Shown here: positions 21,439 to 36,797 of the stretch, in pieces
How the letters are laid out: every line of letters begins with the position of its first letter
Position numbering within the stretch: position 1 is the first letter of the stretch
Assembly (NCBI RefSeq): GCF_017940685.1
Contig: NZ_JAGAYD010000215.1
Location: 1 to 38,619 of the forward strand
Origin: Butyrivibrio sp.
GTDB lineage: Bacteria > Bacillota > Clostridia > Lachnospirales > Lachnospiraceae
Direction: 5' to 3'
DNA: 38,619 nucleotides
Made by a program: the position numbers and the translations under genes
Notes under the pieces: generated by a model
Seen by the model: only the letters and a program-made list of their open reading frames with translations
Database searches by the model: none
Told to the model about the DNA's origin: nothing

Positions 21439-22646
21439 AAGACATCATGAGTATTGATCTGGGAAGACCCATTATTCTGTATATGCATGCCGGATCCGGT
21501 AACCATGGCTGCGAAGCCATCGCAGACAGCCTTATCAGGATCATCGATGCGATAAGGGCATATCATGGCGCAGACTCAAGAATGCCAATTGTCCTGGTGA
21601 CCAACAGCGCCAGGGAAGACAGAAAGTACAGGCTTGGCGATATTGAAAAGAGCGGCCTTTGCACAATAGTGGAAGAAAACCATATAGACAGACATTTATT
21701 TGACCATATTATCTACTACGGATACAGAAAAGTGTCCGGAGACAGAGAGTCTTTTTTGCGATATAGATTTAAAGATGCCTTCAGGGTATATGAGGAAATG
21801 TGTGCTGAGACAGAGGTACCAGCTTATGAACCTCAGGAGACGGGGCTTCGCCCCCTGGCTGTTTCCATAGGAGGAGACAATTACTGCTACCCTGAGATGA
21901 TAGACGATCTTATCCTTGCCCACAATGTCTTTAAGAAAAAGGGCTTTGATACTGTTTTGTGGGGATGCTCGATTGAACCGGATTCCTTATCAGGAAACCA
22001 GAGGCTTGTAGATGATCTTAAAAGCTACACCCATATAATTGCCAGAGAGTCCATCACCTATGGCGCTCTGGTGGGAGCTGGCATCGACAAGGATAGGTTA
22101 GAGATGAGAAAGGATCCTGCCTTTGAGCTACTTAAGGACCTTAAGCAGGTTCCTGAAAAGATACAAAAAGGAGGACCTGTTGGAATAAACTTAAGTCCAA
22201 TGGTCCTTGAAAGAGCCAAGTTCCCGGATAAAGTCAGGGACAGCTACAGGAAATTCATAAGGTTTATTCTTGATACAACAGACAAGGACATCCTTTTGGT
22301 ACCTCACGTTATATGGGGACACACTGACGACAGAAAGCCACTTGGGGAGCTTTATGCGGAGTTTAAGGATACAGGCAGGATACAGATGGTAGAGGACAAT
22401 TCAGCGGAGGTCCTAAAGGGGTACATCTCCTGCTGTAGCTTCTTTGTTGGTGCAAGGACCCACAGTACAATTGCGGCCTACAGCACCGGCGTTCCAACTC
22501 TTGTAATTGGCTATTCAGTAAAGAGCAGAGGAATTGCAACAGACCTTTTTGGAACCACAGACCACTATGTGCTTCCGGTACAGGAGATTGAGGATACAGA
22601 CTCGCTTATAAATTCATACAAATGGATCATGGAAAACAGGAAATAA
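21435..22646 (+). CDS. Polysaccharide pyruvyl transferase family protein
   Basis: A 403-residue member of the polysaccharide pyruvyl transferase family (CsaB/WcaK type), which places a pyruvate ketal from phosphoenolpyruvate on a sugar. The family beginning YMHAGSGNHGCEAIADSL is at 16-33, and the C-terminal VGARTHSTIAAYSTGVP block near 337-353 holds the conserved Arg-Thr-His. The first ATG overlaps the preceding stop (ATGA). A second in-frame ATG at 21447 has an AAGAAGG sequence 13 bases upstream and would remove four residues; the two cannot be separated by eye. Pyruvylation would add negative charge to the surface glycan. Some family members are not pyruvyl transferases. Confidence 0.82.
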   Translation: MKDIMSIDLGRPIILYMHAGSGNHGCEAIADSLIRIIDAIRAYHGADSRMPIVLVTNSAREDRKYRLGDIEKSGLCTIVEENHIDRHLFDHIIYYGYRKVSGDRESFLRYRFKDAFRVYEEMCAETEVPAYEPQETGLRPLAVSIGGDNYCYPEMIDDLILAHNVFKKKGFDTVLWGCSIEPDSLSGNQRLVDDLKSYTHIIARESITYGALVGAGIDKDRLEMRKDPAFELLKDLKQVPEKIQKGGPVGINLSPMVLERAKFPDKVRDSYRKFIRFILDTTDKDILLVPHVIWGHTDDRKPLGELYAEFKDTGRIQMVEDNSAEVLKGYISCCSFFVGARTHSTIAAYSTGVPTLVIGYSVKSRGIATDLFGTTDHYVLPVQEIEDTDSLINSYKWIMENRK

Positions 22647-22652
22647 TCTATT

Positions 22653-22658
22653 GGGGGA
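22653..22658 (+). promoter_or_regulatory. Ribosome binding site deciding the 22666 start
   Basis: GGGGGA seven bases before the ATG at 22666. It overlaps the in-frame TTG at 22651, so that codon is unlikely to be the start; the ATG gives the canonical GT11 beginning. Confidence 0.6.
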
Positions 22659-22665
22659 TTACGAA

Positions 22666-23595
22666 ATGTTAATTGTTCAGATTGCAGGAGGTTTGGGGAA
22701 CCAAATGCAGCAATATGCAGTATACTGCAAGCTTCGGGACTTGGGCAAGGATGTTAAGCTTGACCTGTCCTGGTTTGATAAGTCCACACAGAAGATCATG
22801 TTAGCACCAAGGGACTTTGAACTTTCACTTTTTAAGAACGTGGATTTTGAGGAGTGTTCAGACGCTGAGAGAGACTATTTTCTTAAGAGAAATGTCTTTC
22901 AAAAGGCAGCAGGCAAGGGCCTTAAAAAGCTGGGTATCTGGCAGCACGAAAATCCCAAGGTTTTTGCAGAATCTAAAATGTACCACGAAGAGCTCTTTTC
23001 CCTGGAAGATAAGTACATCACAGGATATTTTGCCTGCCAGAAGTACTACAGCGACATAATGGATGAGCTTACCAAGAAGTTTGAGTTTCCTGCCCATACA
23101 GACGAGATGCTCCACACAAGGAATATGGCTCTTGTTGATAAGATGGAGCACGAGACTAGCGTAAGCGTCCACATAAGAAGGGGTGACTACCTTGATCCCC
23201 CTAATGCAGCAATCCTTGGCAACATCGCCACTGAAGAGTATTACAGAGGCGCCATGGATTATTTCAGGGTAAAAGATAAGTCTACACACTTCTATATTTT
23301 TACCAGCGATCACGAGTATGCCAGGGAAAACTTCTCGGACACTTCAATGTACACAATAGTTGACTGGAACACTGGCAAAAACTCAGTGCAGGATCTTATG
23401 CTCATGAGCCACTGCAAGGGAAATATCTGCGCAAACTCAACCTTCAGTTTCTGGGGAGCAAGGCTCAATAAGAGACAGGACAAGACTGTTATCCGCACGT
23501 ATAAAATGAGAAATAATCAGCCGGTTCAGCCAGATATCATGCATGATTACTGGAAGGACTGGATACTTATGGATGAAAAAGGGAGTATTATCTAA
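22666..23595 (+). CDS. GT11 fucosyltransferase-type glycosyltransferase
   Basis: A 309-residue GT11 protein, the third in the locus. It begins MLIVQIAGGLGNQMQQYAV, has the donor motif HIRRGDYL (169-176), and CANSTFSFWGARL near 255-267. These are the three main blocks of bacterial alpha-1,2-fucosyltransferases, and unlike the 14068 protein it keeps the His-x-Arg-Arg motif. It probably uses GDP-fucose, though the locus has no GDP-fucose synthesis genes in view. It is 19 bases downstream of the pyruvyl-transferase gene and five bases before the flippase gene. Cytoplasmic. Confidence 0.9.
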   Translation: MLIVQIAGGLGNQMQQYAVYCKLRDLGKDVKLDLSWFDKSTQKIMLAPRDFELSLFKNVDFEECSDAERDYFLKRNVFQKAAGKGLKKLGIWQHENPKVFAESKMYHEELFSLEDKYITGYFACQKYYSDIMDELTKKFEFPAHTDEMLHTRNMALVDKMEHETSVSVHIRRGDYLDPPNAAILGNIATEEYYRGAMDYFRVKDKSTHFYIFTSDHEYARENFSDTSMYTIVDWNTGKNSVQDLMLMSHCKGNICANSTFSFWGARLNKRQDKTVIRTYKMRNNQPVQPDIMHDYWKDWILMDEKGSII

Positions 23596-23600
23596 ATTCC

Positions 23601-25130
23601 ATGGGACGAGTTAAGTCGGCAACAAGAAATATTGCATTCGGATATGTAGGGCAGGTGGCAACTGCTCTTATTTCCTTTGTCCTTAGAACAGTATTTCTGC
23701 TGCACTTAAATAAGGAACTCCTGGGGATCAACTCCACCTATACCAACGTTTTAGCCGTTCTTAACATGGCTGAGCTCGGTATCGGAACAGCTCTTAATTT
23801 CAGCCTCTATGGACCTGTGGCAAGAGGGGAAAAAGAGAAGATAAAGTCCTATATGAGGCTGTACCGCAAGGCGTACTTTATCATAGCCTGCGTTGTAGCC
23901 GGCGTTGGCCTTTTGATCTCGCCCTTCCTTAAATTCCTTGTTAAGAATCCAGGGGATGTCTCATTAAGAGACCTTACCCTGTTCTACTTCATATTTCTTT
24001 TCAACACAGTCAGCAGTTACTTTGTGGCCTACAAGTATTCCCTTGTAAATGCCGAGCAAAAGAACTACATCCAGACCAACATAAACACCATTACCAAGGT
24101 AATCACATCACTTTTGCAGATTGTGATCATAGTAGTATTTGAGAACTTTTATCTGTTCCTTCTTACGGATGCGGTGGTTCAGCTGATACAGAAGATATTT
24201 GTATCTCACTTCCTTAACAGGATGTACCCTTACCTCAAGGAGAAGGATGCAAAGCCACTCTCCAAGGAAGAGAACGATGAAGTCTGGAAAAAGACAAAGG
24301 CACTTGTATTTCACAAGATCGGCGATGTGGCAAGGCTTCAGACCGATGCTCTCATCATCTCAAGCTTTATCGAAGTCTCCGTGGCAGGCTTTGTAGATAA
24401 CTACAACCTGGTGATAAATTCTGTGGCAAACTTTGTAAATATCATCTTTAACTCAGTCATCTCAAGCTTTGGTAACCTCATTGCTACAGAGTCCAAAGAG
24501 AGGCAGTTTTCCATGTTCAGGGTCTACAGGTTTTTTGCTTCCTGGATCTATGGATTTTCCTGCGTTGGGTTCATGATCCTTTTGACTCCCCTTATCAGCA
24601 TCATCTGGGGACAGAAGTGGGTACTTCCGTCAGCGGCGGTTTACTGCATCCTTACGGACTATTACTTTAAAGGTGACAGGATAGTTCTTAGTAACTACAA
24701 GACTGCAGCTGGAGTGTTTGAACCCGACAAGTATCTGGCCCTTATACAGGGAGCTGTGAACCTTGTTCTTTCAATCCTCCTTGTACAGACACCTCTGGGG
24801 CTTACTGGTGTGTACATTGGAACCATCGTTTCAGGTCTTATTGCCAACGTCACCAAGCCTGTGATCATTTATGGTACATGCTTTGGAAAAAAAGCTACTG
24901 GCTATTTTATAGATACTTTAAAATACCTTCTTAGCATGGCCTTTGTACTTTTTGTGTGCAGATTCATTGCTGGATATGTACTTGCTGAGCTTAATATCAT
25001 CAGATTCTTTATCATGGTGATAGTGATAACAGTTATCTTTAACGGCGTGTACTTTATCTTGTATGGCAGATCTGAAGAGTTTAAATATGTCTATGCAAGA
25101 GTGAAGGATAAGTTCTCAAAAAGAGGATGA
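23601..25130 (+). CDS. Wzx-like polysaccharide flippase (MATE/MOP superfamily)
   Basis: A 509-residue polytopic protein with about 12-14 spans and the beginning RVKSATRNIAFGYVGQVATALISF seen in Wzx/RfbX-type flippases of Gram-positive capsule loci. The residues ELLGINSTYTNVLAVLNMAELGIG and the alternating hydrophobic layout fit the polysaccharide-biosynthesis-protein branch of the MOP superfamily. It would move the lipid-linked repeat unit to the outer face for the Wzy-like polymerase. A charged insert at about 205-235 lies in a cytoplasmic loop. The ribosome binding site is weak (GGGAG 15 bases upstream), and translation probably follows from the gene before. A second possible flippase of the ABC type is at 12270. 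Confidence 0.88.
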   Translation: MGRVKSATRNIAFGYVGQVATALISFVLRTVFLLHLNKELLGINSTYTNVLAVLNMAELGIGTALNFSLYGPVARGEKEKIKSYMRLYRKAYFIIACVVAGVGLLISPFLKFLVKNPGDVSLRDLTLFYFIFLFNTVSSYFVAYKYSLVNAEQKNYIQTNINTITKVITSLLQIVIIVVFENFYLFLLTDAVVQLIQKIFVSHFLNRMYPYLKEKDAKPLSKEENDEVWKKTKALVFHKIGDVARLQTDALIISSFIEVSVAGFVDNYNLVINSVANFVNIIFNSVISSFGNLIATESKERQFSMFRVYRFFASWIYGFSCVGFMILLTPLISIIWGQKWVLPSAAVYCILTDYYFKGDRIVLSNYKTAAGVFEPDKYLALIQGAVNLVLSILLVQTPLGLTGVYIGTIVSGLIANVTKPVIIYGTCFGKKATGYFIDTLKYLLSMAFVLFVCRFIAGYVLAELNIIRFFIMVIVITVIFNGVYFILYGRSEEFKYVYARVKDKFSKRG

Positions 25131-25134
25131 GCAT

Positions 25135-26238
25135 ATGGATGAACGCTATATCGGACTGGTAAAAGAGACTATCAGAGAGCTCTCTGATATCATGAATGTC
25201 TCCATAAAAGATCAGTTTAAGGACGCCATAAAAAGCGCCATGGGAAGATCTGTAAGGACCAAGGATCCCATGTTCTGGCCTGCAGGAATGCTGATCTTAG
25301 GGCTCGTGGAAGCCAGGGGGAAAATTGCTGACATGTTACCAGGCACTGAGGACATCTCAAAAAAAGCTGACCTTGGTGGTCTTGTCTGCGATATCGATAA
25401 GGCTATTTCTGACCATCTTGCCCTTTGGAGCAACAAATATGGCAGCAGAATAGATTACATTGATGATGCGTTATCCGGAGCTGCTCTTATAAAGCTCTAC
25501 TGCCAGCTTAATGCAGAAGGAAAGGCAGAGGGAGATCTGGCATCTTCCTGCGAACTTGCAGCAAACAGGATTTATGGCTATCTCACTGCAGCCCCAAGGG
25601 ATAAGACTGGTTCCATAGTTTATAACCCATCAAGAAGCAGCAACGTCTTTGCGGACGGAGCAGGACAGACTTCAATGTTTCTTGTGCTCTATGGAAATAC
25701 CTTTGGAGATAGCAGTGCTGTAGAACTTGGAGAGCTGCAGCTACTAAACTTTATGAAATACGGCTGCGATGAGGTTAGCTCTCTTCCATACCATGGATAT
25801 TCACTAACTGAAGGTGATGGAGAAGGGGCAGCGCTGATCATTGAAAAAAGAGGCGTTCTGTCCTGGGGAAGGGCAGCAGGCTGGATCATCATGGGGCTTA
25901 GTGAATGCAGGGCAGTACCTGAACTTAGAGACTGGTATGACAGGCTTGTGAAAGCTCTTTTGACCTATCAAAAGAAAGACGGCGGGTTCGCATGGCAGAT
26001 CCAGGCCACAGAAGGACGCCTTGACACGTCAGCAACGGGCATGATAGTTTATGGACTTGGCGGCGCAAGCATAGACCATGGCGATATCAGTGACACCATA
26101 GAAGCGCTGTGGCAGAATGTCCAGGATAATAAGGTTCTGGGAAGCCTTTCATCCTGCGACGACTTTGGGGTCCATTATCAGAATTATGGGCATTACCCAT
26201 GGGGACAGGGAGCAGTTTTAGCGGCTCTGTCTAAATAA
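25135..26238 (+). CDS. GH88/GH105-like unsaturated-uronyl hydrolase homologue, cytoplasmic
   Basis: A 367-residue protein with the motif order of an (alpha/alpha)6-barrel unsaturated-glucuronyl or rhamnogalacturonyl hydrolase: FADGAGQTSMF with D174, LPYHGYS (217-223), SWGRAAGW (243-250), DTSATGM (297-303) and WGQGAVLA (356-363). Known GH88/GH105 enzymes use an Asp at the first motif to hydrate the double bond of lyase products. There is no signal peptide, so it acts in the cytoplasm. It has AGRUGIHISEAG (25122-25127) as ribosome binding site region, AGAGGA, seven bases before the start, and is co-directional with the flippase. Such an enzyme is unusual in a biosynthesis locus; it could recycle glycan fragments or have a changed reaction. 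Family call is moderately sure; activity is open. Confidence 0.65.
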   Translation: MDERYIGLVKETIRELSDIMNVSIKDQFKDAIKSAMGRSVRTKDPMFWPAGMLILGLVEARGKIADMLPGTEDISKKADLGGLVCDIDKAISDHLALWSNKYGSRIDYIDDALSGAALIKLYCQLNAEGKAEGDLASSCELAANRIYGYLTAAPRDKTGSIVYNPSRSSNVFADGAGQTSMFLVLYGNTFGDSSAVELGELQLLNFMKYGCDEVSSLPYHGYSLTEGDGEGAALIIEKRGVLSWGRAAGWIIMGLSECRAVPELRDWYDRLVKALLTYQKKDGGFAWQIQATEGRLDTSATGMIVYGLGGASIDHGDISDTIEALWQNVQDNKVLGSLSSCDDFGVHYQNYGHYPWGQGAVLAALSK

Positions 26239-26244
26239 TTTTTT

Positions 26245-26249
26245 GGAGG
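26245..26249 (+). promoter_or_regulatory. Ribosome binding site deciding the TTG start at 26258
   Basis: GGAGG eight bases before the TTG at 26258. The in-frame TTG at 26243 overlaps this site and is therefore not credible as the start. Confidence 0.6.
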
Positions 26250-26257
26250 CATTAGTT

Positions 26258-27628
26258 TTGGAACATAGTAAAAAGAGAGGTTCCTTCTCAGGAAAGATCG
26301 GGTTTGTTTTATCTGCAGCAGGAGCTTCAGTAGGACTTGGAAATATCTGGAGATTCCCTTATCTGTGCGCAAAGTACGGCGGTGGGATTTTCCTTGCAAT
26401 CTATATAATACTGGCACTGACCTTTGGATACACCATGATCATTGCGGAGACAGCCATTGGAAGGCACACAAAAAAGAGCCCTGTTGGGGCTTTTAGCTCT
26501 TTTACAAATAAAAAGCACATGATCTTTGGTGGTTGGATAAACGCTGTTATTCCGATCCTGATAGTTCCGTATTATTCAGTTATCGGTGGCTGGGTATGCA
26601 AATATCTGTATGACTACATTACAGCTGATGTAAATGTGATCGCAGCAGATGGTTTCTTTACAGACTTTATCACCAATGGCGCAGAAAGTGAGTTTTGGTT
26701 TTTGATCTTTTCACTTATTGTGCTTCTGATCATCTTCATGGGAGTAAGAAGAGGAATAGAATCTGTATCTAAGATCATGATGCCAATACTTGCGGTACTT
26801 GCGGTTGTCATCTGCATCTACTCAGTTACAAGGCCAGGGGCTTTAGAGGGAGTTAAGTATTGCCTTATCCCTGACTTTTCAAGGTTTTCTATCATGACCT
26901 TTGTATCCGCTATGGGCCAGATGTTTTATTCTCTTTCCATCGCTATGGGTATCCTTATTACCTTTGGTTCCTATGTGAAAAAAGATGTAAGCATCGAGCA
27001 GTCCACAGAGCAGGTGGAAATATTTGATACAGCAATTGCCATTATCGCAAGCCTTATGATAATCCCTGCTGTATTTGCTTTTTCAGGTGGAAGCCCAGAG
27101 ACTTTAAAGGCTGGACCATCTCTTATGTTCATTACAATGCCCAATATCTTTGCCAGCATGGGCTTTGGAAAGATCATTGGAATACTGTTCTTTTTGCTTG
27201 TTTTATTTGCAGCTGTGACCAGTGCTATCGCACTTTTAGAGAGCGCTGTATCTACCTTTTATGACGAGTTTAAATGGTCAAGAAATCTTGGAACCAGCGT
27301 AATGGGCCTTATTATGGTGGCCCTTGGCTCACTGTCATCCCTCGGCTATGGACCACTTGGCGGTGTTACCATCTTTGGAATGCAGTTTTTGGACTTCTTT
27401 GACTTTTTGACCAACTCCATCATGATGCCAATAGCAGCTCTTTTCACCTGCCTGCTTGTGATCAGGTATATGAGCATTGCTCTTATTGAAGAGGAAGTTG
27501 AGCTTGGAGGACATCCTTTCCGCAGAAAGAAGATGTTTAGCTTCATGATAAAGTATCTGTGCCCGCTGTTTGTGTTGATCATTCTTGTGAGCTCTATCTG
27601 CAGCGTGCTGGGGCTTATTCAGATTTGA
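26258..27628 (+). CDS. Sodium-dependent transporter, NSS (SNF) family
   Basis: A 456-residue symporter of the neurotransmitter:sodium symporter family. The first span holds the diagnostic FVLSAAGASVGLGNIWRFPY, which forms part of the sodium and substrate sites in LeuT-fold members. About 11 hydrophobic spans follow, as in short bacterial members such as MhsT and TnaT, which import amino acids. The start is TTG at 26258, set by the GGAGG site. It is 19 bases after the GH88/GH105-like gene and so probably on the same transcript, though its link to glycan synthesis is not clear. I see no clear terminator after it. The substrate (probably an amino acid) cannot be named. Confidence 0.9.
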   Translation: MEHSKKRGSFSGKIGFVLSAAGASVGLGNIWRFPYLCAKYGGGIFLAIYIILALTFGYTMIIAETAIGRHTKKSPVGAFSSFTNKKHMIFGGWINAVIPILIVPYYSVIGGWVCKYLYDYITADVNVIAADGFFTDFITNGAESEFWFLIFSLIVLLIIFMGVRRGIESVSKIMMPILAVLAVVICIYSVTRPGALEGVKYCLIPDFSRFSIMTFVSAMGQMFYSLSIAMGILITFGSYVKKDVSIEQSTEQVEIFDTAIAIIASLMIIPAVFAFSGGSPETLKAGPSLMFITMPNIFASMGFGKIIGILFFLLVLFAAVTSAIALLESAVSTFYDEFKWSRNLGTSVMGLIMVALGSLSSLGYGPLGGVTIFGMQFLDFFDFLTNSIMMPIAALFTCLLVIRYMSIALIEEEVELGGHPFRRKKMFSFMIKYLCPLFVLIILVSSICSVLGLIQI

Positions 27629-27739: not shown

Positions 27740-27997
27740 ATGAATACAAGAGAACTTAAGAAGTATTTTAAGGATCATTTAGTTCCTTCCAAGCTTTACA
27801 AGATTGGCGGCTCACACAAAAACAGGATCTGTCTTGATAAGACAGAAAGTGGATGGGCAGTATATTTCCAGGATAAAAAGGAGAAGATCGGAGTCCTGAA
27901 TTTTGTTGATGAAGCATCAGCCTGCAGCAGAATGAAGGATGAACTTCGTAAGCTCATGGAGCAGATGTACGGAGTAACATGGATTGCTGCCAGATAA
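27740..27997 (+). CDS. Small protein of unknown function (85 aa)
   Basis: An 85-residue soluble protein, with a strong GGAGGAG ribosome binding site five bases before ATG. Residues 1-40 read as a helix then KIGGSHKNRICLDK; 41-70 hold WAVYFQDKKEKIG and FVDEASACSRM. The pattern helix, glycine turn, W-x-V-Y-(F/Y) strand, then F-x-x-E-x-x-A-C helix recalls short immunity-type or orphan proteins of Firmicutes and Bacteroidetes, but this is an impression and I do not name a family. No toxin gene is next to it. It has its own repeat-rich leader and ends before a shared bidirectional terminator, so it is a stand-alone gene. Confidence 0.7.
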   Translation: MNTRELKKYFKDHLVPSKLYKIGGSHKNRICLDKTESGWAVYFQDKKEKIGVLNFVDEASACSRMKDELRKLMEQMYGVTWIAAR

Positions 27998-28026
27998 GTT
28001 AGAAACATTTGAATACTTACAATAAA

Positions 28027-28054
28027 AAAGAGGTGCCATTTCTGGCACCTCTTT
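28027..28054. terminator. Bidirectional intrinsic terminator
   Basis: A perfect 12-bp stem, AAAGAGGTGCCA (28027-28038) paired with 28043-28054, with a TTTC loop. It has an A-rich run before and a T-rich run after, so it can end both the small gene at 27740 and the convergent sensory hydrogenase gene. Confidence 0.9.
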
Positions 28055-28069
28055 CGTTATCTTTGGTAA

Positions 28070-30019
28070 TTAGTCATGTGAAGCAAGATTTTCTACTTCG
28101 GCTTTTACCTTCTCCATGGTTTCTGCAAGGGTCTGTGTAGATCCAGAAATGTCTTTTGCAGAAGTGGCAAGATTTTTGATCTTGTCATTGACCTGGGTTA
28201 CGATCTCAAGAAGGTCTGAAGTTTCAACGGTGATTCCCTCAAGGGCATTCTTGATGTTGTCGTTTGCAGCACCGCTGTTCTGGGCGGTAGTCTTGGAATC
28301 TGCTGCCAGGTCATTGATTTCAGTTGCGACAACTGCAAAGCCCTTACCAGCGTCTCCGGCTCTTGCAGCCTCGATTGCTGCGTTAAGAGCAAGGAGGTTA
28401 GTCTGGTTGGCAATCTCAACGACCTTCTTGTTGTTTGCTTCAAGCTCATCCAGGTAAGCCGTGATCTGGGTCATGGAGTCGTTGACCTTGTTGCAGAACT
28501 CATTTACGTTGGACATATCTTCTGAAATTGCGGAGCTTTCTTCGGCGTTGTTGCTGTTTCCGCTGCTGATCTCCTGCATAGTGGAGTTCAGTGATACGAA
28601 GTGCTCATTTATTGTATTGATAGCATCTATGATGCTCTGTTTCTGTCTATCAAGTGAAGATCTCTCTTTCTCAACAAGCTCCTGAGCATCTTTCTTTTCA
28701 ATCTCTACGAGATCCTTTAGATAGTGAACACAGTTGGAAGTGTGGTTAAAGCCGTTGTAGATGGCAGTAGCCATATCTTTACAGGTTGCATATCCACAGC
28801 TTGAGCAGTTGATCTTGCGGGACTCTGGTGTTGTCTTGTGCATGTCATTGAAGATCGCGTTGAGCTCAGCCTCTGATGGCTTTTTATATGCGCACTGCTT
28901 GGACTTGTCAGTATACTTTCTGAGGTAATCCTCAAGGCGCAGGTGAGCAAACTGCTTGTTAAGAGCAGCAAGTCTTTTTTGAGGAGTAAGTGGTCTGCTC
29001 CATGGACTCTTCTTGGTGTCTTTTTTAACTCTCTCCTGGATCTCATGGAGATTGTAGAGAGGATCGTCATTACTTGTGATCTTAGGATCTGTACCAGTTC
29101 CTGAAATACAACCGCATCTGCAGTTTAAGGCATCGATGAACAGGAATGGAGTCTTGCCACCTTTGATTCTGTCAGCATTCTTTTCAAGGAAGTGATACAT
29201 GTGCTTTTCACCCTCGATCTGTCTGATGAAGGCGTCGCTTCCAAGTAGCCAGTAAACATTGTCCTTAAGTCCGCCAGGCATAGGATAGATGGAACCAAGT
29301 CCATACTCGATCTCATCTGATACAGGACTTCCAGAGATACCATGCTCCTTCATATATTTCATCATGTGATTGAAGGTTACGTTATATTGAACAAGGCCCT
29401 TGTTATTAGGGTCATCAATTTCCATTTTCTTAGCGATACATGGGCTGATAAATGCCAGCTTATCCTTTATTCCCATCTCTTTTCTTGCATAGACAGCAGC
29501 GCACATAAGAGGGCTCTGTACCGGGAAGAGCTTTGGAAGAAGCTGAGGCAGGTATCTTTCAATATAACCTACAACAGCAGGACAAGGCTGGGAAATTCCG
29601 CCAAGGAAGTTATGCTGCTGGATGTAGTTGATATATGCCCAGGTTGTGATATCAGCACCAAAGGATACACTGATCATCCTGTTTACGCCCATTTTTTTAA
29701 GGCCACCAAGAGCGGATTCATATTCTCTTGGGTAGTCTGCAAGAAAGGCTGGTGCGATGAGGATAGATATCTTTTCGCCCCTCTTAAGGTCTTCAAAGAA
29801 TCTCTCTGTATCGTCATTGTATTCTCTTGCGTTATGCTCGCAGGCATCAAAACATGCACCGCAGGCAATACACTTGCTGGAGTCAACTTGGATCTTGGAT
29901 ATGCCATCAGCGTCAGGCTCTCCAGACACACATGCACCCATACAGCTACAAGCACTGATACATTTGTTACAGCCAACGCAGTTGTCGTTGGTAAATACTA
30001 ATTGAAAGTTTTCAGCCAT
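28070..30019 (-). CDS. Soluble sensory [FeFe]-hydrogenase fused to a chemoreceptor signalling domain
   Basis: A 649-residue protein without membrane spans. Two ferredoxin-like 4Fe-4S clusters are bound by C14/C17/C20/C24 and C50/C53/C56/C60. The hydrogenase large-subunit domain (about 75-370) has the three H-cluster motifs in altered form: QPCPA (C146), SPCIAKKME (C194) and NCRCGC (C300 and C304). These altered forms mark sensory rather than catalytic [FeFe]-hydrogenases. A further 4Fe-4S site has C405, C408, C413 and C430. A coiled coil follows, and then a methyl-accepting chemotaxis signalling tip at about 530-575 ([19 protein letters not shown]). I infer a cytoplasmic hydrogen or redox sensor that signals to CheA/CheW. 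Ribosome binding site GGAGAC precedes its start. No PAS domain is seen. Confidence 0.88.
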
Positions 30020-30327: not shown

Positions 30328-31779
30328 ATGAGGAATAAATGGATATCTGGAGGCAAGTGGATATCGGGAATAAGTGCTTTCATTCTTATTCTTTCTCTCC
30401 CTATTTTTAACTGGATCAAGGTAGTCAACCTGGTTACTCTCTTTTCCAGGATTGGCGTGACAAAAGAGATGGCAGGCGATCTCCTTACTGGATACAACCT
30501 GTACAATCTTTTGTCCTTTGTCCAGTATTCAAACCAGGGAGTTCTGGGACTGCCATCCATGGTACTTCTGATACTTATGGCGTCTGCGATCTACTTCAAT
30601 GTAGCCTACATCATCAGAACCTTTATGGCCAGCAGGAACAGAAAGGGGAAGGGCGAGCTTTCACTTTTAGCTGCAGGAAAATGTGCCTTTTTATTTGAGT
30701 TCATAGCAGCTTTATCAACAATCGTGTTTGTGATCTTTTCCAACATAAGATTTGGAATGACGGGATTTCTTCCATCTGCAGTGGTGTTTATCGAGCTGAT
30801 CGTTTCACTGGCGGCTTACATCTACATCAAGGTACTTGAGAGCAGAGAACGCAAGAAATACCGAGAGCATGGACTATTAGTAGAAATAAAGAGAAACTGG
30901 GTACTGTTTGTCATGCTGATACCTACATTTGTCTACTTCATGATCAACAACTACCTGCCGATGCTGGGTGTGTACTTTGCATTCACATCATTTAACTTTA
31001 GAGACGGCCTTTGGTCCAGTCCCTTCACTGGATTTAAGAACTTTGAGTTTTTGATCAAGGCAGACCTTTTCAGACTCACCAAGAACACAGTTCTTTACAA
31101 CGTGGTGTTCATAGGAATTGGCAATATACTTCAGATCATCTTTGCAATCCTTGTTAGCAGGGTGACAGTTAAGTGGTTTAAAAAGACTTCACAGACACTG
31201 ATGTTCATGCCATATTTCGTATCGTTTGTTATTTTAAAAGTTATTGTCTACAACGTATTTGAGTATCAGTACGGACTTATCAATAACATCATCACCGGCT
31301 TTGGGGGAGACAGGATTGACTTTTACAACACCCCAGGCTACTGGCCATTTCTCATAACCTTCTTCTATTTATGGAAGAATATCGGATATGGAATGGTTGT
31401 GTACCTTGCCACCATCATGGGAATTGACAACGAGATCTACGAGGCAGCAAGAGTTGACGGAGCAAACGATCTTCAGCAGATCTGGTACATCACTCTGCCA
31501 CACATCAAACCAACCTTCATAATCCTTTTGCTCTACGCACTTGGAAGCATCATGAAGGGCCAGTTCGAGCTGTTCTACCAGCTTATTGGTAACAACGGAG
31601 TATTGTTCAACGCAACGGATATCTTTGACACATATGTGTATAGGATCACAATGACACAGCCACTTTCAATCGGCCTTGGAACTGCTGCTGGTCTTTACCA
31701 GTCACTGTTCGGATTTTTGATCATTGTCCTTGTAAACTATGTTGTTAAAAAGAGAAATCCAGAGTACGCACTGTTCTAA
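30328..31779 (+). CDS. CUT1-type sugar ABC importer permease (LplB-like) with N-terminal extension
   Basis: A 483-residue permease. The usual LplB/YtcQ-type domain starts near residue 185 with VLFVMLIPTFVYFMIN and holds the EAA loop from E372 (EAARVDGANDLQQIWYITLP), which contacts the ATPase. Before it are about 180 residues with four more hydrophobic spans (about 8-27, 74-98, 110-135 and 145-165) and a charged linker, not present in normal ~300-residue members. It pairs with the permease at 31794 and the binding protein at 32764. There is no ATPase gene nearby, so a shared MsmK/MsmX-type ATPase encoded elsewhere is expected. The GGGAGG site precedes ATG by six bases. The substrate is probably an oligosaccharide. 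Confidence 0.9.
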   Translation: MRNKWISGGKWISGISAFILILSLPIFNWIKVVNLVTLFSRIGVTKEMAGDLLTGYNLYNLLSFVQYSNQGVLGLPSMVLLILMASAIYFNVAYIIRTFMASRNRKGKGELSLLAAGKCAFLFEFIAALSTIVFVIFSNIRFGMTGFLPSAVVFIELIVSLAAYIYIKVLESRERKKYREHGLLVEIKRNWVLFVMLIPTFVYFMINNYLPMLGVYFAFTSFNFRDGLWSSPFTGFKNFEFLIKADLFRLTKNTVLYNVVFIGIGNILQIIFAILVSRVTVKWFKKTSQTLMFMPYFVSFVILKVIVYNVFEYQYGLINNIITGFGGDRIDFYNTPGYWPFLITFFYLWKNIGYGMVVYLATIMGIDNEIYEAARVDGANDLQQIWYITLPHIKPTFIILLLYALGSIMKGQFELFYQLIGNNGVLFNATDIFDTYVYRITMTQPLSIGLGTAAGLYQSLFGFLIIVLVNYVVKKRNPEYALF

Positions 31780-31793
31780 GGAAGGAGGAAGAC

Positions 31794-32720
31794 ATGGCAA
31801 AAGATTTAGACTACGAACCATCAGCCCCAAAGACCATAAAAAAGTCCACTGGGACCAAGATCTTTGAAGCTATAGCTTACATATTGCTTGCGGTTGGATC
31901 CATAGTGTGCGTGCTCCCTTTCATCATCATTGTGTCAGGATCATTTACAGATAACTCAACGATCCTTATAAAGGGATATTCTCTTCTTCCAAGGGATTTC
32001 ACACTATCTGCATATCAGACGATCTTTAGATCGCCAAAAGATATACTCCAGGCCTACAAGATGACTCTTTACTACACAGTTGTAGGTACAGGCCTTGGAC
32101 TTATGATGATAACTTTAACTGGTTACGTTATCTCAAGAAAAGAGTTTAAGTACAGAAATACCGTTTCATTTCTTATTTATTTCACCAGCATCTTCGGAGG
32201 CGGCATGATCCCATGGTATCTGATGTATGCCAATGTACTCAACTTAAAGGGATCAACACTGGCAATCTGGTTCCCGGCTCTTATGAGTCCCTTCCTTGTA
32301 ATCCTTATGAGGACATTCATTGTGGGAGCAGTTCCGGATGCTATTACAGAGTCAGCCAAGATAGATGGCGCAGGACATTTTACAATCTTCTTCAGGATCG
32401 TACTTCCGGTTCTTAAACCGGGACTTGCGACAGTAGGTCTTTTCCTGGCACTTGGCTACTGGAATGATTGGTACAGATCTTCAATGTTTAGTACCAATTC
32501 ATCCACCTGGCAGCTGCAGTTCTATCTGTATGACCTTCTTAATGCCACAACAGCCATGAAGCAGATGGCAAGTAACGTCAGCATGAAGACAGCTGACCTT
32601 CCTACTGAGTCAGTTAAGCTGGCAATGGCAGTAGTAGCAACAGGACCAGTGCTTTTGTTCTATCCATTTGTACAGAGATTCTTCGTTTCAGGAATCACTG
32701 TTGGTGCAGTAAAAGGCTGA
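31794..32720 (+). CDS. CUT1-type sugar ABC importer permease (LplC/YtcP-like)
   Basis: A 308-residue permease with six spans and the EAA loop from E186 (ESAKIDGAGHFTIFFRIVLP). It is the normal length for the family and is the second half of the membrane channel with the 30328 gene, 14 bases upstream. A GGAGG site precedes the ATG. The N-terminal ~25 residues are polar and cytoplasmic. In LplB/LplC-type importers of gut and rumen Firmicutes the substrates are plant or host oligosaccharides. The gene ends 43 bases before the binding-protein gene, and the gap holds operator 3. Confidence 0.92.
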   Translation: MAKDLDYEPSAPKTIKKSTGTKIFEAIAYILLAVGSIVCVLPFIIIVSGSFTDNSTILIKGYSLLPRDFTLSAYQTIFRSPKDILQAYKMTLYYTVVGTGLGLMMITLTGYVISRKEFKYRNTVSFLIYFTSIFGGGMIPWYLMYANVLNLKGSTLAIWFPALMSPFLVILMRTFIVGAVPDAITESAKIDGAGHFTIFFRIVLPVLKPGLATVGLFLALGYWNDWYRSSMFSTNSSTWQLQFYLYDLLNATTAMKQMASNVSMKTADLPTESVKLAMAVVATGPVLLFYPFVQRFFVSGITVGAVKG

Positions 32721-32724
32721 TTTA

Positions 32725-32738
32725 TAAAAACGTTTTCA
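32725..32738. promoter_or_regulatory. LacI-type operator 3 before the binding-protein gene
   Basis: TAAAAACGTTTTCA, matching operators 1 and 2 except at the last two bases. It lies in the 43-base gap after the permease, ahead of TATAAA at 32745-32750 and the GGAGG site. It may control a second promoter for the binding protein. It also fits the CcpA cre pattern at all but one position. Confidence 0.6.
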
Positions 32739-32763
32739 TATTTATATAAAAAGGAGGCAAAAT

Positions 32764-34413
32764 ATGAAGAAAAAAGTTTTAAGTGTATTGTTGTCAATGG
32801 CAATGGTGGCTGGAGTCATCACAGGTTGTGGCGGCGCAGCTCAGTCAGCAGCTGATCAGCTGGAGGCTGAAGGGGTTACAGAGATCCCTCAGTCAGAGGC
32901 TTCAACAGAGGCTGCAACTACGGAGGCACCTGCAGAGACAGAGGCAAAAGAGCTTGATCTCTCACAGCAGGTTGATCTTGTGTTCTATGTAATGGGTGAT
33001 GCTCCACAGGACGAAGAGCTTGTTGAGGATGCCCTCAATGAAAAGCTCCTTGAGAAGTGCAACGCAACAGTTGATATGCAGTTTTCAACATGGACAGATT
33101 TCCAGCAGAAGTATGCTAACGAGATCACAGCACAGAGTGCAGATCTTATCTACATCGCTAACTGGCTCAACTATGGACAGCTTGCAAGTAGCGGAGCTTT
33201 CGAAGAGCTTGATGAGATGCTTGACACTGTAGCTCCTGAGCTTAAGGCAACTGTTGGCGATAGCGCTCTTAACATGTGCAAGGTAGATGGCAAGATCTAT
33301 GCAGTACCTAATACATGGGCTGAGTATGTATGTAACGGTGTTAAGTACAGAGAAGATCTTCGTGCTAAGTACGACCTTCCTGTTCCTGATTCACTTGAGA
33401 ACCTTGAGGCTTACCTTCTTGGTATCAAAGAGAACGAGCCTAACCAGGGCCTTCTTACTGTAACAACAGAAGAGAGCCAGGGACTTAAGACTGGTTTCGA
33501 TGCAGCATGGGCTCTTAACTTCAAGTATCCTTGGGTTGCTAACAATGGTCTTGACTATGGTCTTGCAGCAAACTACGACACACCTGCAGATGTTTATGAC
33601 TACTGGTATTCAGATGACTTCGTAGATGATATGAAGCTTATGAAGAAGTGGGCAGATCTTGGCTTCTGGAGCAAGAGTGCACTTTCAGATACAAACAACT
33701 CTGATGCATACAAGAACGGCCTTTGCGTAGCAGAGGTTGCTGGACAGAACCCTAACAAGCAGGTTACAGCTATCGCAGATTTTGAGAATGCAGGACAGGG
33801 CTGGGAGTCAGCATATGTTGCATATGGTGAGACAAACGGAATCATTTATCCTGGACATGCTACACAGAACGGAACAGCAATCGTAAGAGGCTGCAAAGAT
33901 CCTGAGAGAGCACTTCTTGTTCTTCAGACACTTCTTTGCGACGAAGAGACAAACGCAATCCTTCAGTATGGTATCAAGGGAACACACTACGATGTAGTTG
34001 ATGGCATCTACAAGAACCTTCAGGAAGAGGCAGGCGAGACACCTACATTCCCATATGAAGGCTTCAACACATGGAACCTCAGAAATGGTGAGACCAAGCT
34101 TCCTCAGAAGACAGACGTAGCTCTTCAGGAGATGTTTGACAAGTACGCAGCACTTGGCGCTAAGACCAAGTTCCCTAACGTAAATATCTATGATGGCTTT
34201 GCAGAGAACTATGACTCCTACAGCGCTGAGAGATCAGCAGTAAGTAACGTTATGAGACAGTACCTTGCTCCTCTTGAGGCAGGTCTTGTTGATGATGTTG
34301 ACGCAGCAGTAGAAGAGTTCAGAAGCAAGATGAAAGAAGCTGGCATTGATAAGTGCCGTGAAGAGTACACAAAGCAGTGGGTTGCATACTGCGAAGAGTA
34401 CGATTACAAGTAA
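32764..34413 (+). CDS. Extracellular sugar-binding lipoprotein of the ABC importer
   Basis: A 549-residue lipoprotein. Residues 1-21 are a signal peptide, and VITGC places the lipidated Cys at 22. A Glu/Ala/Thr-rich linker (about 28-65) is followed by the binding domain. The length and position after two LplB/LplC-type permeases match family-1 type oligosaccharide-binding proteins. Visible WxxY and aromatic clusters (TWAEYVCN, WALNFKYPW) may stack on sugars. The codon choice is visibly narrow (runs of CTT, GCA, AAC, ACA), more so than in neighbouring genes, which agrees with high expression of a binding protein. GGAGG is six bases before the start. The substrate is unknown. Confidence 0.92.
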   Translation: MKKKVLSVLLSMAMVAGVITGCGGAAQSAADQLEAEGVTEIPQSEASTEAATTEAPAETEAKELDLSQQVDLVFYVMGDAPQDEELVEDALNEKLLEKCNATVDMQFSTWTDFQQKYANEITAQSADLIYIANWLNYGQLASSGAFEELDEMLDTVAPELKATVGDSALNMCKVDGKIYAVPNTWAEYVCNGVKYREDLRAKYDLPVPDSLENLEAYLLGIKENEPNQGLLTVTTEESQGLKTGFDAAWALNFKYPWVANNGLDYGLAANYDTPADVYDYWYSDDFVDDMKLMKKWADLGFWSKSALSDTNNSDAYKNGLCVAEVAGQNPNKQVTAIADFENAGQGWESAYVAYGETNGIIYPGHATQNGTAIVRGCKDPERALLVLQTLLCDEETNAILQYGIKGTHYDVVDGIYKNLQEEAGETPTFPYEGFNTWNLRNGETKLPQKTDVALQEMFDKYAALGAKTKFPNVNIYDGFAENYDSYSAERSAVSNVMRQYLAPLEAGLVDDVDAAVEEFRSKMKEAGIDKCREEYTKQWVAYCEEYDYK

Positions 34414-34428
34414 TTGGTGTGGTATAAT
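34404..34428 (+). promoter_or_regulatory. Extended -10 promoter of the LacI-type gene
   Basis: TGGTATAAT at 34420-34428 is a perfect TGn extended -10. It needs no strong -35; TTACAA at 34404-34409 has too short a spacer (13). It begins inside the 3' end of the binding-protein gene. No palindromic operator is near it, so the regulator would not repress itself by the same sites. Confidence 0.6.
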
Positions 34429-34437
34429 GTCTAGATG

Positions 34438-34443
34438 AAGGAG
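34438..34443 (+). promoter_or_regulatory. Ribosome binding site for the TTG start at 34453
   Basis: AAGGAG nine bases before the TTG at 34453. No ATG is available between it and the DNA-binding helix-turn-helix, so TTG is the start. Confidence 0.65.
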
Positions 34444-34452
34444 TAACCTACT

Positions 34453-35460
34453 TTGTCTAACGAAAACAGAAAAATAACAATTAAAGATGTGGCTAGAGAA
34501 GCGGGGGTATCAATATCTACTGTTTCCAATGCCTTGAATAATGTGAATGTTCTTCACCCTGATACCAAGGAGAGGATCCTGGAGGTAGCCAGAAGGCTTA
34601 ACTATACTCCAAACCTTAATGGCAGGAATTTAAAAGCTGGAGCTACCGGCGTTTTAGGTCTTTTCCTTGGTGCCATCAGAGGACCTTACTACGGCGAACT
34701 GTCTGATTCCATATACAACGCCTGCAAGGATAATGGATATGAGCTGGAAATCTTTTTAAGCTACGACGCCAGACATATCATGGCAAACATCATGGGACAC
34801 AGAGTTGATGGAGCTATTATCCTTAACGGAGCCATAGGCAGTGACCAGGTGGAGGTCCTCAAGAACCAGGGTATTCCAACTGTCTACATTGACAGGATCC
34901 TTGTAGGAGACAAGTCATCCAGCGTGGTGTTTGACTCCTACAATGGAGGACAGAAGGTTGCCAGGTTCCTTTTGGAGCTTGGTCACAAGAGATTCATGTT
35001 CATAGAAGGTGAAGTGACCAACTACGATGCTGGTGAGCGTAAAAAAGGCTTTTTTGATGAGCTTAAAAAAGCAGGCATCACCGTATCGGATGATTATATA
35101 TTACGTGGCGAATTTGAGCGAAAGGCTGCCTATGATTCTGTAACAGAATTTTTGGATTCAGGTAAGCCTTTGCCAGATGCTGTTTTTGCAGCCAATGACC
35201 TGAGTGCTATAGGTGCATCTGAGGCCTTCAGAGACGGAGGCGTAAGTGTTCCGGATCAGGTCAATGTCATAGGATGTGATGATATCGAGCTTACAAGACT
35301 TGTAAGCCCATCTATCACCACTATTCGTACCTTCTTTGAAAAGCAGGGCGTAATAGCAGTAGATAAGCTCGTTAAGATGATAAACGGAGAATCTGGCGAG
35401 CTGATAACCTTAAACGGAAGGATAATCCCGCGCGAGTCCACAAAAGCAAAGGATTCGTAA
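34453..35460 (+). CDS. LacI-family transcriptional regulator
   Basis: A 335-residue regulator. The N-terminal helix-turn-helix KDVAREAGVSISTVSNALNN is at about 10-29, with the hinge helix NLNGRNLKAG near 56-65 leading to the type-1 periplasmic-binding-protein-like sugar-sensing domain. TTG start. It lies in the same unit as the importer and the GH30 gene, and its stop overlaps the GH30 start (TAATG), so the two are co-translated. It is the likely reader of the three TAAAAACGTTTT palindromes. The effector sugar is unknown but should be the imported or hydrolysed sugar. Confidence 0.9.
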   Translation: MSNENRKITIKDVAREAGVSISTVSNALNNVNVLHPDTKERILEVARRLNYTPNLNGRNLKAGATGVLGLFLGAIRGPYYGELSDSIYNACKDNGYELEIFLSYDARHIMANIMGHRVDGAIILNGAIGSDQVEVLKNQGIPTVYIDRILVGDKSSSVVFDSYNGGQKVARFLLELGHKRFMFIEGEVTNYDAGERKKGFFDELKKAGITVSDDYILRGEFERKAAYDSVTEFLDSGKPLPDAVFAANDLSAIGASEAFRDGGVSVPDQVNVIGCDDIELTRLVSPSITTIRTFFEKQGVIAVDKLVKMINGESGELITLNGRIIPRESTKAKDS

Positions 35461-36797
35461 TGAAAAATATAAAAATTATCGAGACAGATACCAGCAGGGG
35501 CCTGTTCTGGGCACAGCAGAGCGCTGGAGAAGTCACTGCTGCTAAGGAAATGAAGCAGCTTGTCATCTATCCCGATGAAAAGGAGACCACCATCAGAGGT
35601 TTTGGAGGAGCCTTCACTGAGGCTGCAGCCCATACCTATATGTGCCTTCCGGAGGACAAAAAAGATAACCTCATCGAGGATCTTTATGGAGATTCTGGTC
35701 TTCGCTATACAATGGGGCGCATTCACATGAACAGCTGTGATTTTGCCCTTGGTAATTACACCTATATCGAAGAAGGGGATGAGACCTTAGACACCTTTGA
35801 TATCTCTCATGATAAAAAAGAGATCATTCCCATGATAGAGGCAGCTACCAAAAAGCTTGGCAGACAGCCGGTCCTTATGATGGCTCCATGGTCACCACCG
35901 CCATTTATGAAGACCAACGGAGAGATGAACCACGGCGGTAAGCTTAAAAGTGAGTATAAAGAGCTTTGGGCTAAGTACTATGTTAGATTTATAGAAGAGT
36001 ATAGAAGTATCGGAATAGATATTTCTTTTACATCCATCCAGAATGAACCCATGGCAACACAGACCTGGGATTCCTGCATTTACACGGCTCAGGATGAAGC
36101 AGAGTTTGTGGCAGATTACTTAGGGCCTGCTATGGAGAAGGCAGGACTTCTAGATAAGATGAAGATCTTTGTCTGGGATCACAACAAGGAAATCTCTTAT
36201 GTAAGACTAAAGGAAATCCTTGAAAGAAAGGGCGCAGAAAAGTATGTATCTGGCTGCGCAGTTCACTGGTACACAGGAGATCACTTTGAAAACCTCCATC
36301 TCATAAAAAAGCATTTCCCTGAAAAAGAGATCTTTTTTACGGAAGGCTGTGTTGAGTATTCAAGGCTTTCTGATGCCAGCGATGTACAGAACGCAGAGAT
36401 GTACGCCCACCAGATGATCGGAAATCTAAAGGGCGGAATAACAGCAATCTTTGACTGGAACCTGATCGTTGACTTTAAGGGAGGCCCAAATCACGTAGGA
36501 AACTACTGCGATGCTCCCATAAAGGCTCTTGAATCCGGCAAAGACTATGAGAAAAAGCTGTCCTACTATTACATTGGCCATATGACAAGGTACATAAAGG
36601 AAGGTGCAAATCTTATCTGGAGCAGTAATTATACAGATAAGCTTGACGCGTTAGCTTCTCTTAATCCAGATGGGCAGCGGGTAGTTGTCATACTTAATAA
36701 GTCTGGTGAGGAGCTTCCTGTAGAACTTCGTGAAGGCGATGAATCTACAAGACTTACACTTGCGCCTCACTCCATACAGACAGTATTATATGAGTAA
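35460..36797 (+). CDS. Cytoplasmic GH30-family glycoside hydrolase
   Basis: A 445-residue retaining glycosidase of family GH30. The acid/base is E196 in SIQNEP and the nucleophile is E295 in FFTEGC, on the two usual strands of the (beta/alpha)8 barrel; other family blocks are GFGGAFTEAAA (near 42-52), MAPWSPPPFMK and HWYTGDHFE. The C-terminal beta-domain ends QTVLYE. There is no signal peptide, so it acts on a substrate brought in by the ABC importer, splitting a beta-linked di- or oligosaccharide. Family members include glucosylceramidases, beta-1,6-glucanases and xylanases, and the subfamily cannot be fixed by eye. The ATG shares a base with the LacI-type stop codon. Confidence 0.9.
   Translation: MKNIKIIETDTSRGLFWAQQSAGEVTAAKEMKQLVIYPDEKETTIRGFGGAFTEAAAHTYMCLPEDKKDNLIEDLYGDSGLRYTMGRIHMNSCDFALGNYTYIEEGDETLDTFDISHDKKEIIPMIEAATKKLGRQPVLMMAPWSPPPFMKTNGEMNHGGKLKSEYKELWAKYYVRFIEEYRSIGIDISFTSIQNEPMATQTWDSCIYTAQDEAEFVADYLGPAMEKAGLLDKMKIFVWDHNKEISYVRLKEILERKGAEKYVSGCAVHWYTGDHFENLHLIKKHFPEKEIFFTEGCVEYSRLSDASDVQNAEMYAHQMIGNLKGGITAIFDWNLIVDFKGGPNHVGNYCDAPIKALESGKDYEKKLSYYYIGHMTRYIKEGANLIWSSNYTDKLDALASLNPDGQRVVVILNKSGEELPVELREGDESTRLTLAPHSIQTVLYE

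Follow-up and report, generated by a model that had tools for sequence, protein, structure and literature searches.

The contig of 38,619 nucleotides analyzed here (the window), which belongs to a Butyrivibrio genome, carries a gene, named here hyd-MCP, for a protein in which an [FeFe]-hydrogenase-type domain is joined to a chemoreceptor signaling hairpin. The identification of this protein as a cytoplasmic chemoreceptor with a chemotaxis output is well supported. As regards its signal, the reading we favor, to which we give very nearly an even chance, is that this soluble Fe-S chemoreceptor steers by the redox state of the cell in this organism and by H2 in the relatives linked to the maturases HydE, HydF, and HydG.

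Gene and Domain Organization

The features discussed below are as follows, residue numbers being those of the hyd-MCP protein.

28070..30019, minus strand: whole hyd-MCP gene, encoding a hydrogenase-like soluble chemoreceptor; ATG start, 649 amino acids, intact frame
29825..29998, minus strand: ferredoxin-like unit, residues 8–65; two four-cysteine motifs, C14/17/20/24 and C50/53/56/60
29099..29770, minus strand: [FeFe]-hydrogenase-type domain (PF02906, by Pfam), residues 84–307
29576..29590, minus strand: QPCPA, residues 144–148; C146 is the presumed [4Fe-4S]H ligand, P145 lies at the position of the proton-relay residue C299 of CpI
29420..29446, minus strand: SPCIAKKME, residues 192–200; C194 is a presumed ligand, K197 presumably equals K358 of CpI, S192 replaces M353
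29108..29125, minus strand: NCRCGC, residues 299–304; C300 and C304 are presumed ligands, L298 just before them lies at the position of M497 of CpI
28727..28816, minus strand: PF04060 site, residues 402–431; C405-C408-C413-C430, spaced Cx2Cx4Cx16C as in HydS
28085..28702, minus strand: predicted coiled-coil arms and signaling hairpin, residues 440–645
28325..28402, minus strand: chemoreceptor tip, residues 540–565; standard tip motif, intact
28024..28055: inverted repeat (arms 28030–28038 and 28043–28051) with a T run on the minus strand; likely terminator, read by eye

The Pfam searches and the reading of the motifs agree on the layout proposed in the initial annotation, namely a single chain with two ferredoxin motifs, an [FeFe]-hydrogenase domain, a further 4Fe-4S site, and a chemoreceptor tip. 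Besides Fer4 (43–65) and Fer4_7 (13–64), the three families for which an HMM search had been suggested all scored above their cut-offs: Fe_hyd_lg_C at 84–307 (E 2.6e-30, 106.3 bits, cut-off 22.1), FeS PF04060 at 402–431 (E 6.3e-7, 29.5 bits, cut-off 23), and MCPsignal at 511–647 (E 4.5e-24, 85.7 bits, cut-off 34.6). The top NCBIfam match was the group B hydrogenase TIGR04105, far below its cut-off (137.7 of 450 bits). The protein was also correctly predicted to have neither a membrane span (maximum hydropathy 1.2 in a 19-residue window) nor a PAS domain, no PAS family being detected in the Pfam search down to E 0.1. The two N-terminal 4Fe-4S ferredoxin motifs and the four H-cluster cysteines (C146, C194, C300, and C304) are present. 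The residue K197 occupies what we take to be the position of K358 in CpI. As to methylation sites, the strict consensus pattern gave 0 matches and the relaxed pattern one match, at 479–486.

Comparisons with the Butyrivibrio locus L089 indicate that the hyd-MCP gene is under purifying selection: dN/dS amounts to 0.023 in the ferredoxin unit and 0.025 in the hydrogenase domain, and among the C-terminal parts to 0.091 in the linker, 0.109 in the short FeS site, and 0.053 in the arms and tip. Among the matches listed, the closest named loci come from Butyrivibrio MAGs (L089, 94%; L090, 87%; L091 and L092, 86%), and Pseudobutyrivibrio ruminis stands lower (69%). The draft genome to which the window belongs comprises 3.67 Mb on 281 contigs, with a completeness of 94.8%.

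The ten neighbors of hyd-MCP scanned are genes for sugar metabolism, transport, a regulator, and polysaccharides, with no evident link to the receptor. Positions 20446–27628 hold a single run of genes for a glycosyltransferase 2, a polysaccharide pyruvyl transferase, a GT11, a GH88-like protein, and an SNF-family symporter (the scan excludes 23601–25130), and positions 30328–36797 hold ABC transporter genes and genes for a DUF3502 protein, a LacI regulator, and a GH30 enzyme (the scan excludes 31794–32720). The 85-amino-acid open reading frame at 27740–27997, with 0 Pfam matches, ends at the same inverted repeat as hyd-MCP, which, read by eye, is likely to be a terminator common to both. As to a conserved promoter, the alignment of five upstream regions yielded nothing firm.

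Distribution and Conservation in the Lachnospiraceae

Full-length relatives of hyd-MCP were identified in 57 of the 299 Lachnospiraceae genomes sampled, which span 298 genera. The carriers leave out the genome G285 and the fragmentary MCP of G029. They do include G083, G122, G200, and G101, in which a single stop lies within the match (in G101, within that of one copy). A pattern search of the genome contigs gave at least 590 matches, and 574 of the 590 listed encode a relative; on these counts, a chance domain match was rejected. The best 80 were kept as named loci, which were found by the motif ISQPCPAV and then filtered by CPAVV, so that the invariance of ISQPCPAV among them results from the way in which they were chosen. 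Six of these 80 loci were dropped before the counts, and L033, L038, and L047, having no single open frame, were left out of the counts. The maturase-labelled set of 52 rows is independent of the selection by motif: five of 57 labelled loci were dropped, and four with partial maturase sets stand outside the comparison of the two main classes (48 rows). The 57 labelled loci do not amount to one per carrier, G011, G076, and G157 occurring twice and some carriers being absent.

In an alignment of 27 relatives showing 54–72% identity to the window protein, C146, C194, C300, and C304 are invariant, as are the second ferredoxin motif and C405, C408, C413, and C430. The CpI residues were mapped onto hyd-MCP by alignment to group A proteins, the CpI sequence itself standing outside the alignment. 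On this mapping, P145 stands for C299, Y129 for E279, Y132 for E282, F165 (variable) for S319, S192 for M353, and L298 for M497; serine is retained at the S319 position in 9/48 relatives. As to a conserved neighborhood, no neighbor family, the maturases included, occurs in more than seven of 74 named loci.

Variants of the receptor were also observed. Longer versions of 788–794 amino acids are encoded at L041 (G135), L155, and L157, and the additional C-terminal part of L041 resembles, by eye, a response-regulator receiver domain. At L178 (G108:C4:51500-56800), two hydrogenase-MCP genes lie in tandem, one 61% identical to the window protein and the other divergent (35%).

Relation to Known Sensory Hydrogenases

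The direct chemoreceptor output, singled out in the initial annotation as the notable point, belongs to a class that already has a name: Table 1 of PMC5037454 lists the [FeFe] group C2 of HydDB, "Chemotactic (putative)," linked to methyl-accepting chemotaxis proteins. Since this class exists and the relatives are common, the newness of the hydrogenase-MCP idea was rejected. The window protein is likened to C2 by description, as an [FeFe]-hydrogenase-type sensor with an MCP link; it differs in that C2 is proposed to sense H2, whereas the genome of the window has no detected maturases and carriage in the family is not associated with HydG. In the available text of PMC9431212, C2 hits were discarded after checks, and our literature search found no experimental work on fusions between a hydrogenase and an MCP. 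The non-association with HydG, the maturase arrays of some relatives, and the swapped outputs described below are new with respect to the literature covered.

With the HydS enzymes (TmHydS, group C M2f; TamHydS, group D M2e), hyd-MCP shares the two N-terminal 4Fe-4S motifs, the Cx2Cx4Cx16C site, and the loss of the group A proton-transfer residues (C299, E279, S319, and E282), in place of which it carries P145, Y129, F165, and Y132. It differs from them in having no PAS domain, which group C has, in the MCP hairpin following the cluster, in the proline at C299, and in the leucine at M497. The match between the spacing of C405-C408-C413-C430 and that of the M2e/M2f sensory hydrogenases had not been foreseen; these enzymes, as far as the available text of PMC8163306 goes, show none of the group A proton-transfer residues and have the C-terminal motif Cx2Cx4Cx16C. 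About 10% of the sensory sequences in HydDB also carry a proline at the C299 position (PMC10055695). According to the portions available of PMC8163306 and PMC10055695, both TmHydS and TamHydS take up [2Fe] in spite of lacking those group A residues; TmHydS does so without the methionine at M497 as well, a position of poor conservation in groups C and D. In CpI carrying the M497L change, [2Fe] is not properly integrated (PMC10055695).

The cluster motifs QPCPA, SPCIAKKME, and NCRCGC, initially described as of a non-catalytic type, are present, but they do not settle the nature of the signal, since the HydS enzymes share the losses and still bind [2Fe]; that odd motifs alone exclude an H-cluster was rejected for the same reason. 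The correspondence between L298 and the M497L change of CpI may be taken as a weak point in favor of the redox reading, and the uptake of [2Fe] by TmHydS and TamHydS, together with the poor conservation of M497, counts against it. The available text of PMC4478896, which finds little evidence for a role of [FeFe] hydrogenase in butyrivibrios and assigns their H2 to Ech, counts for it.

Ten further proteins carry the hydrogenase module with other outputs: GGDEF, GGDEF-EAL, HisKA/HATPase with or without receiver and Hpt domains, and PAS-kinase. In a tree of 43 rows, a single branch (22 rows, 100/99) separates the MCP, kinase, and GGDEF proteins from the PAS-type group of L176, group B, and group A, and the MCP and kinase outputs are interleaved; the finer order is unsure because of a long-branch warning. 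The sensors L169–L175 and L177 have the same module as hyd-MCP and stand on its side of the branch, their outputs being swapped for GGDEF, GGDEF-EAL, or histidine kinase; L177 (G029:C134) is a histidine kinase whose sensor module shares 62% identity with the window protein across residues 7–464. The PAS-type sensory hydrogenase L176 of the same family keeps the order of Fer4, Fe_hyd_lg_C, and FeS, but ends in a PAS domain and forms a separate clade with L222–L225 (100/100; the domain scan refers to L176 alone). L169, L170, L174, and L175 are GGDEF or GGDEF-EAL proteins, and in L169, L170, and L174 the K197 position is occupied by R or I, the cubane cysteines remaining in place. The first cluster motif reads TSCSP, and not TSCCP, in the group A hydrogenases L055, L056, L058, L059, L060, L065, L066, L067, and L072.

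Maturation Genes and the Signal Sensed

HydE, HydF, and HydG are described as being required for the [2Fe] unit (available text of PMC12752695 and PMC6212873). None of the three was found above the cut-off in the genome of the window (94.8% complete, 281 contigs) or in the same-genus genome G207 (100% complete), which has no full-length receptor either, and a search with a HydG protein gave no match in these two genomes. This search covered 38 genomes, eight of which matched: three positive controls at 78% identity and five others at 27–34%.

In the family as a whole, HydG is above the cut-off in 131/299 genomes, and carriage of the receptor is not associated with it: 26/57 carriers and 105/242 other genomes have HydG (p=0.77), and within the CheA-positive genomes 26/56 carriers vs. 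48/98 others (p=0.87). In the controls, HydG is present in 96/190 genomes with a group-A-strength hydrogenase vs. 35/109 (p=0.002), and in 127/266 genomes with any group A- or B-strength match vs. 4/33 (p=6e-5); the group A label means a best E-value under 1e-80, and four genomes were scored as having no match by elimination. Although the control hydrogenases are associated with HydG, about half of these genomes have none, and the absence of HydG is therefore a weak sign that no H-cluster is made. HydG is below the cut-off in 94/190 genomes with a group-A-strength hydrogenase, including the single-contig genomes G191 and G232, so that either many hydrogenases stay unmatured or some maturation route has been missed, and the idea that a missing HydG simply means no hydrogenase is weakened. 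A group B hydrogenase whose motifs are canonical (TIGR04105, 570 bits) is encoded in the genome of the window itself, in which maturases were not detected.

HydE and HydF were sought in 65 genomes (the 57 carriers, seven with partial or other-output relatives, and G207) and were above the cut-off in 34 and 35 of them, respectively. All three maturases are present in 30 of these genomes, none in 29, and a partial set in six (G011, G083, G086, G122, G134, and G245). Among the 57 carriers, 25 (the genome of the window and 24 others) have no HydE, HydF, or HydG, and six have a partial set. G233 (100% complete) and G255 (99%) have no PF02906 match other than the receptor and no maturase above the cut-off. 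The four cluster cysteines and K197 are nevertheless identical in 25/25 maturase-positive and 23/23 maturase-less proteins, and the other pocket positions (the equivalents of S319, Q325, and E279) vary in both classes alike. On the receptor tree, the maturase status is scattered, with 20 changes for the positive state (shuffled mean 17.5) and 16 for the negative one (mean 17.4), a weak signal being expected since the 299 genomes span 298 genera; G180, with maturases, and G233, without, are sisters.

That hyd-MCP is a decaying, functionless relic, as the failure to find maturases in its genome might suggest, is very unlikely, given the intact frame, the same ligands in all the maturase-less relatives, and above all the dN/dS of 0.025 in the hydrogenase domain, which speaks against decay.

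Of 120 loci (80 named and 40 others, some overlapping), each examined with a limited stretch of flanking sequence, seven have maturase genes near the receptor. Five of them are operon-like arrays in two gene orders: hydE-hydG-hydF-receptor on one strand (L095 and L197), and receptor-hydE-hydG-hydF (L108 and L125), with L109 showing receptor-hydG and then hydF, no hydE being seen. At L094 and L166 the nearby maturase genes lie on the opposite strand. In G151 (locus L197, 72% complete), the receptor of the array is the only PF02906 match. The arrays lead us to argue that the receptor in these hosts is matured by HydEFG and senses H2. The receptor gene at L198 (G116:C8) lies immediately after a group B hydrogenase gene; maturases were not detected in that genome.

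These data bear on the possibility that hyd-MCP is a true hydrogen chemoreceptor, in which a full H-cluster would bind H2, the electrons would reduce the C-terminal cluster, and CheA would be switched, the maturases having been missed, lying in an assembly gap, or being replaced by an unrecognized [2Fe] route. We regard this possibility as plausible, if on balance somewhat doubtful. It is consistent with the arrays, the four cysteines and K197 being alike in 48/48 rows of the two main classes, a domain layout equal to that of HydS minus PAS, and the C2 definition in the part of PMC5037454 available, and the canonical hydrogenases of genomes lacking HydG give a hint of possible H-cluster assembly in them; against it stand the lack of HydE, HydF, and HydG above the cut-off in the genome of the window and in the complete G207, the carriage unassociated with HydG, and the retention of the receptor in G233 and G255.

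The redox reading is favored by the fact that carriage tracks CheA (see below) but not HydG, by the failure to find HydE, HydF, and HydG above the cut-off in the genome of the window, in G207, and in 24 other carriers, by G233 and G255, which keep the receptor as the only PF02906 match without maturases above the cut-off, by the cysteines and K197 being fixed without maturases and the hydrogenase-domain dN/dS of 0.025 (the maturase status of the L089 genome lying outside that comparison), and by the unclustered maturase status on the receptor tree. Counted against it are the arrays at 5/120 loci and the case of G151, the HydG-less group-A-strength genomes and the canonical group B hydrogenase of the window's own genome, and the draft state of the assembly; an identical pocket with or without maturases would also fit one shared cofactor equally well. 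Since 25/57 hosts are without detected HydE, HydF, or HydG while the ligands and K197 are still fixed, the protein may be a [4Fe-4S]-only redox sensor of hydrogenase fold, its H-domain signaling by the cubane alone, or else these hosts may build an H-cluster without the three maturases; this either-or statement we rate at a little under an even chance.

Chemotaxis Output

One contig of the genome carries consecutive genes for FlhA-, FlhF-, and FlhG-like proteins, a YcgR-like PilZ protein, CheB, CheA (705 amino acids), CheW, CheC, CheD, and a sigma factor; CheV is encoded on a different contig. There are eight flagellin matches and 16 MCPsignal matches above the cut-off, that of the window included. 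The search for che genes suggested in the initial annotation thus succeeded. In the family, CheA (PF02895) is present in 154/299 genomes, and in 56/57 carriers vs. 98/242 others (p=1e-17), the only CheA-less carrier being G174 (76% complete). The initial proposal that hydrogen or redox state steers motility or another Che-like output therefore stands on the chemotaxis side, as shown by the co-occurrence with CheA and the che and flagellar genes, while hydrogen as the signal in this organism is doubtful because HydE, HydF, and HydG were not found above the cut-off.

The tip Glu of hyd-MCP is followed by 99 residues, as compared with 159–162 in 10 of the 11 other MCPs of the genome measured and 150 in the remaining one; four of the 15 other MCP loci (L005, L006, L008, and L018) show no tip by the search pattern and stand outside this comparison. 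Since this arm is about 60 residues shorter, hyd-MCP is unlikely to share an MCP array of its own genome in register, and with a hairpin of a shorter class it probably belongs to a cytoplasmic cluster. The MCP part might serve a CheA-linked output other than swimming, or form a separate cytoplasmic cluster controlling another process, as the related modules driving GGDEF, GGDEF-EAL, and histidine kinase outputs might also suggest. We consider this unlikely in view of the standard tip motif of hyd-MCP and of the single CheA (H-kinase_dim) match in the genome, which lies inside the flagellar gene run.

Proposed Mechanism and Implications

According to the redox reading, electrons from a low-potential pool, probably reduced ferredoxin, would enter the N-terminal ferredoxin clusters, presumed to be occupied. 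From there they would reach the hydrogenase-type domain with its cubane and then the C-terminal [4Fe-4S] site, which heads the coiled coil. A change in charge or shape at this cluster would alter the hairpin and set the activity of CheA, and the cell would thereby steer by its own redox state. We infer that the receptor of this genome lacks the [2Fe] part of an H-cluster and would therefore respond to redox and not directly to H2. Where maturases are present, H2 could feed the same chain of clusters, and where they are not, the reduced ferredoxin of the cell would do so; the relatives encoded beside hydE, hydG, and hydF most likely carry the full H-cluster and sense H2.

Surveys based on HydDB score such genes as putative H2 sensors. 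Since the present family, which is common in the Lachnospiraceae, goes with CheA and shows no association with HydG, such surveys may in part miscount H2 sensors, or the known picture may lack a maturation route. The persistence of canonical hydrogenase genes, including the group B gene of this genome, without detected maturases is puzzling. Pairs of hosts such as G180 and G233, whose receptors are close relatives and of which only one has maturases, make HydS-type signaling without [2Fe] directly testable, and either outcome, whether signaling by the cubane alone or an H-cluster built without HydEFG, would, if true, change the way in which "hydrogenase" genes are read in the Lachnospiraceae.
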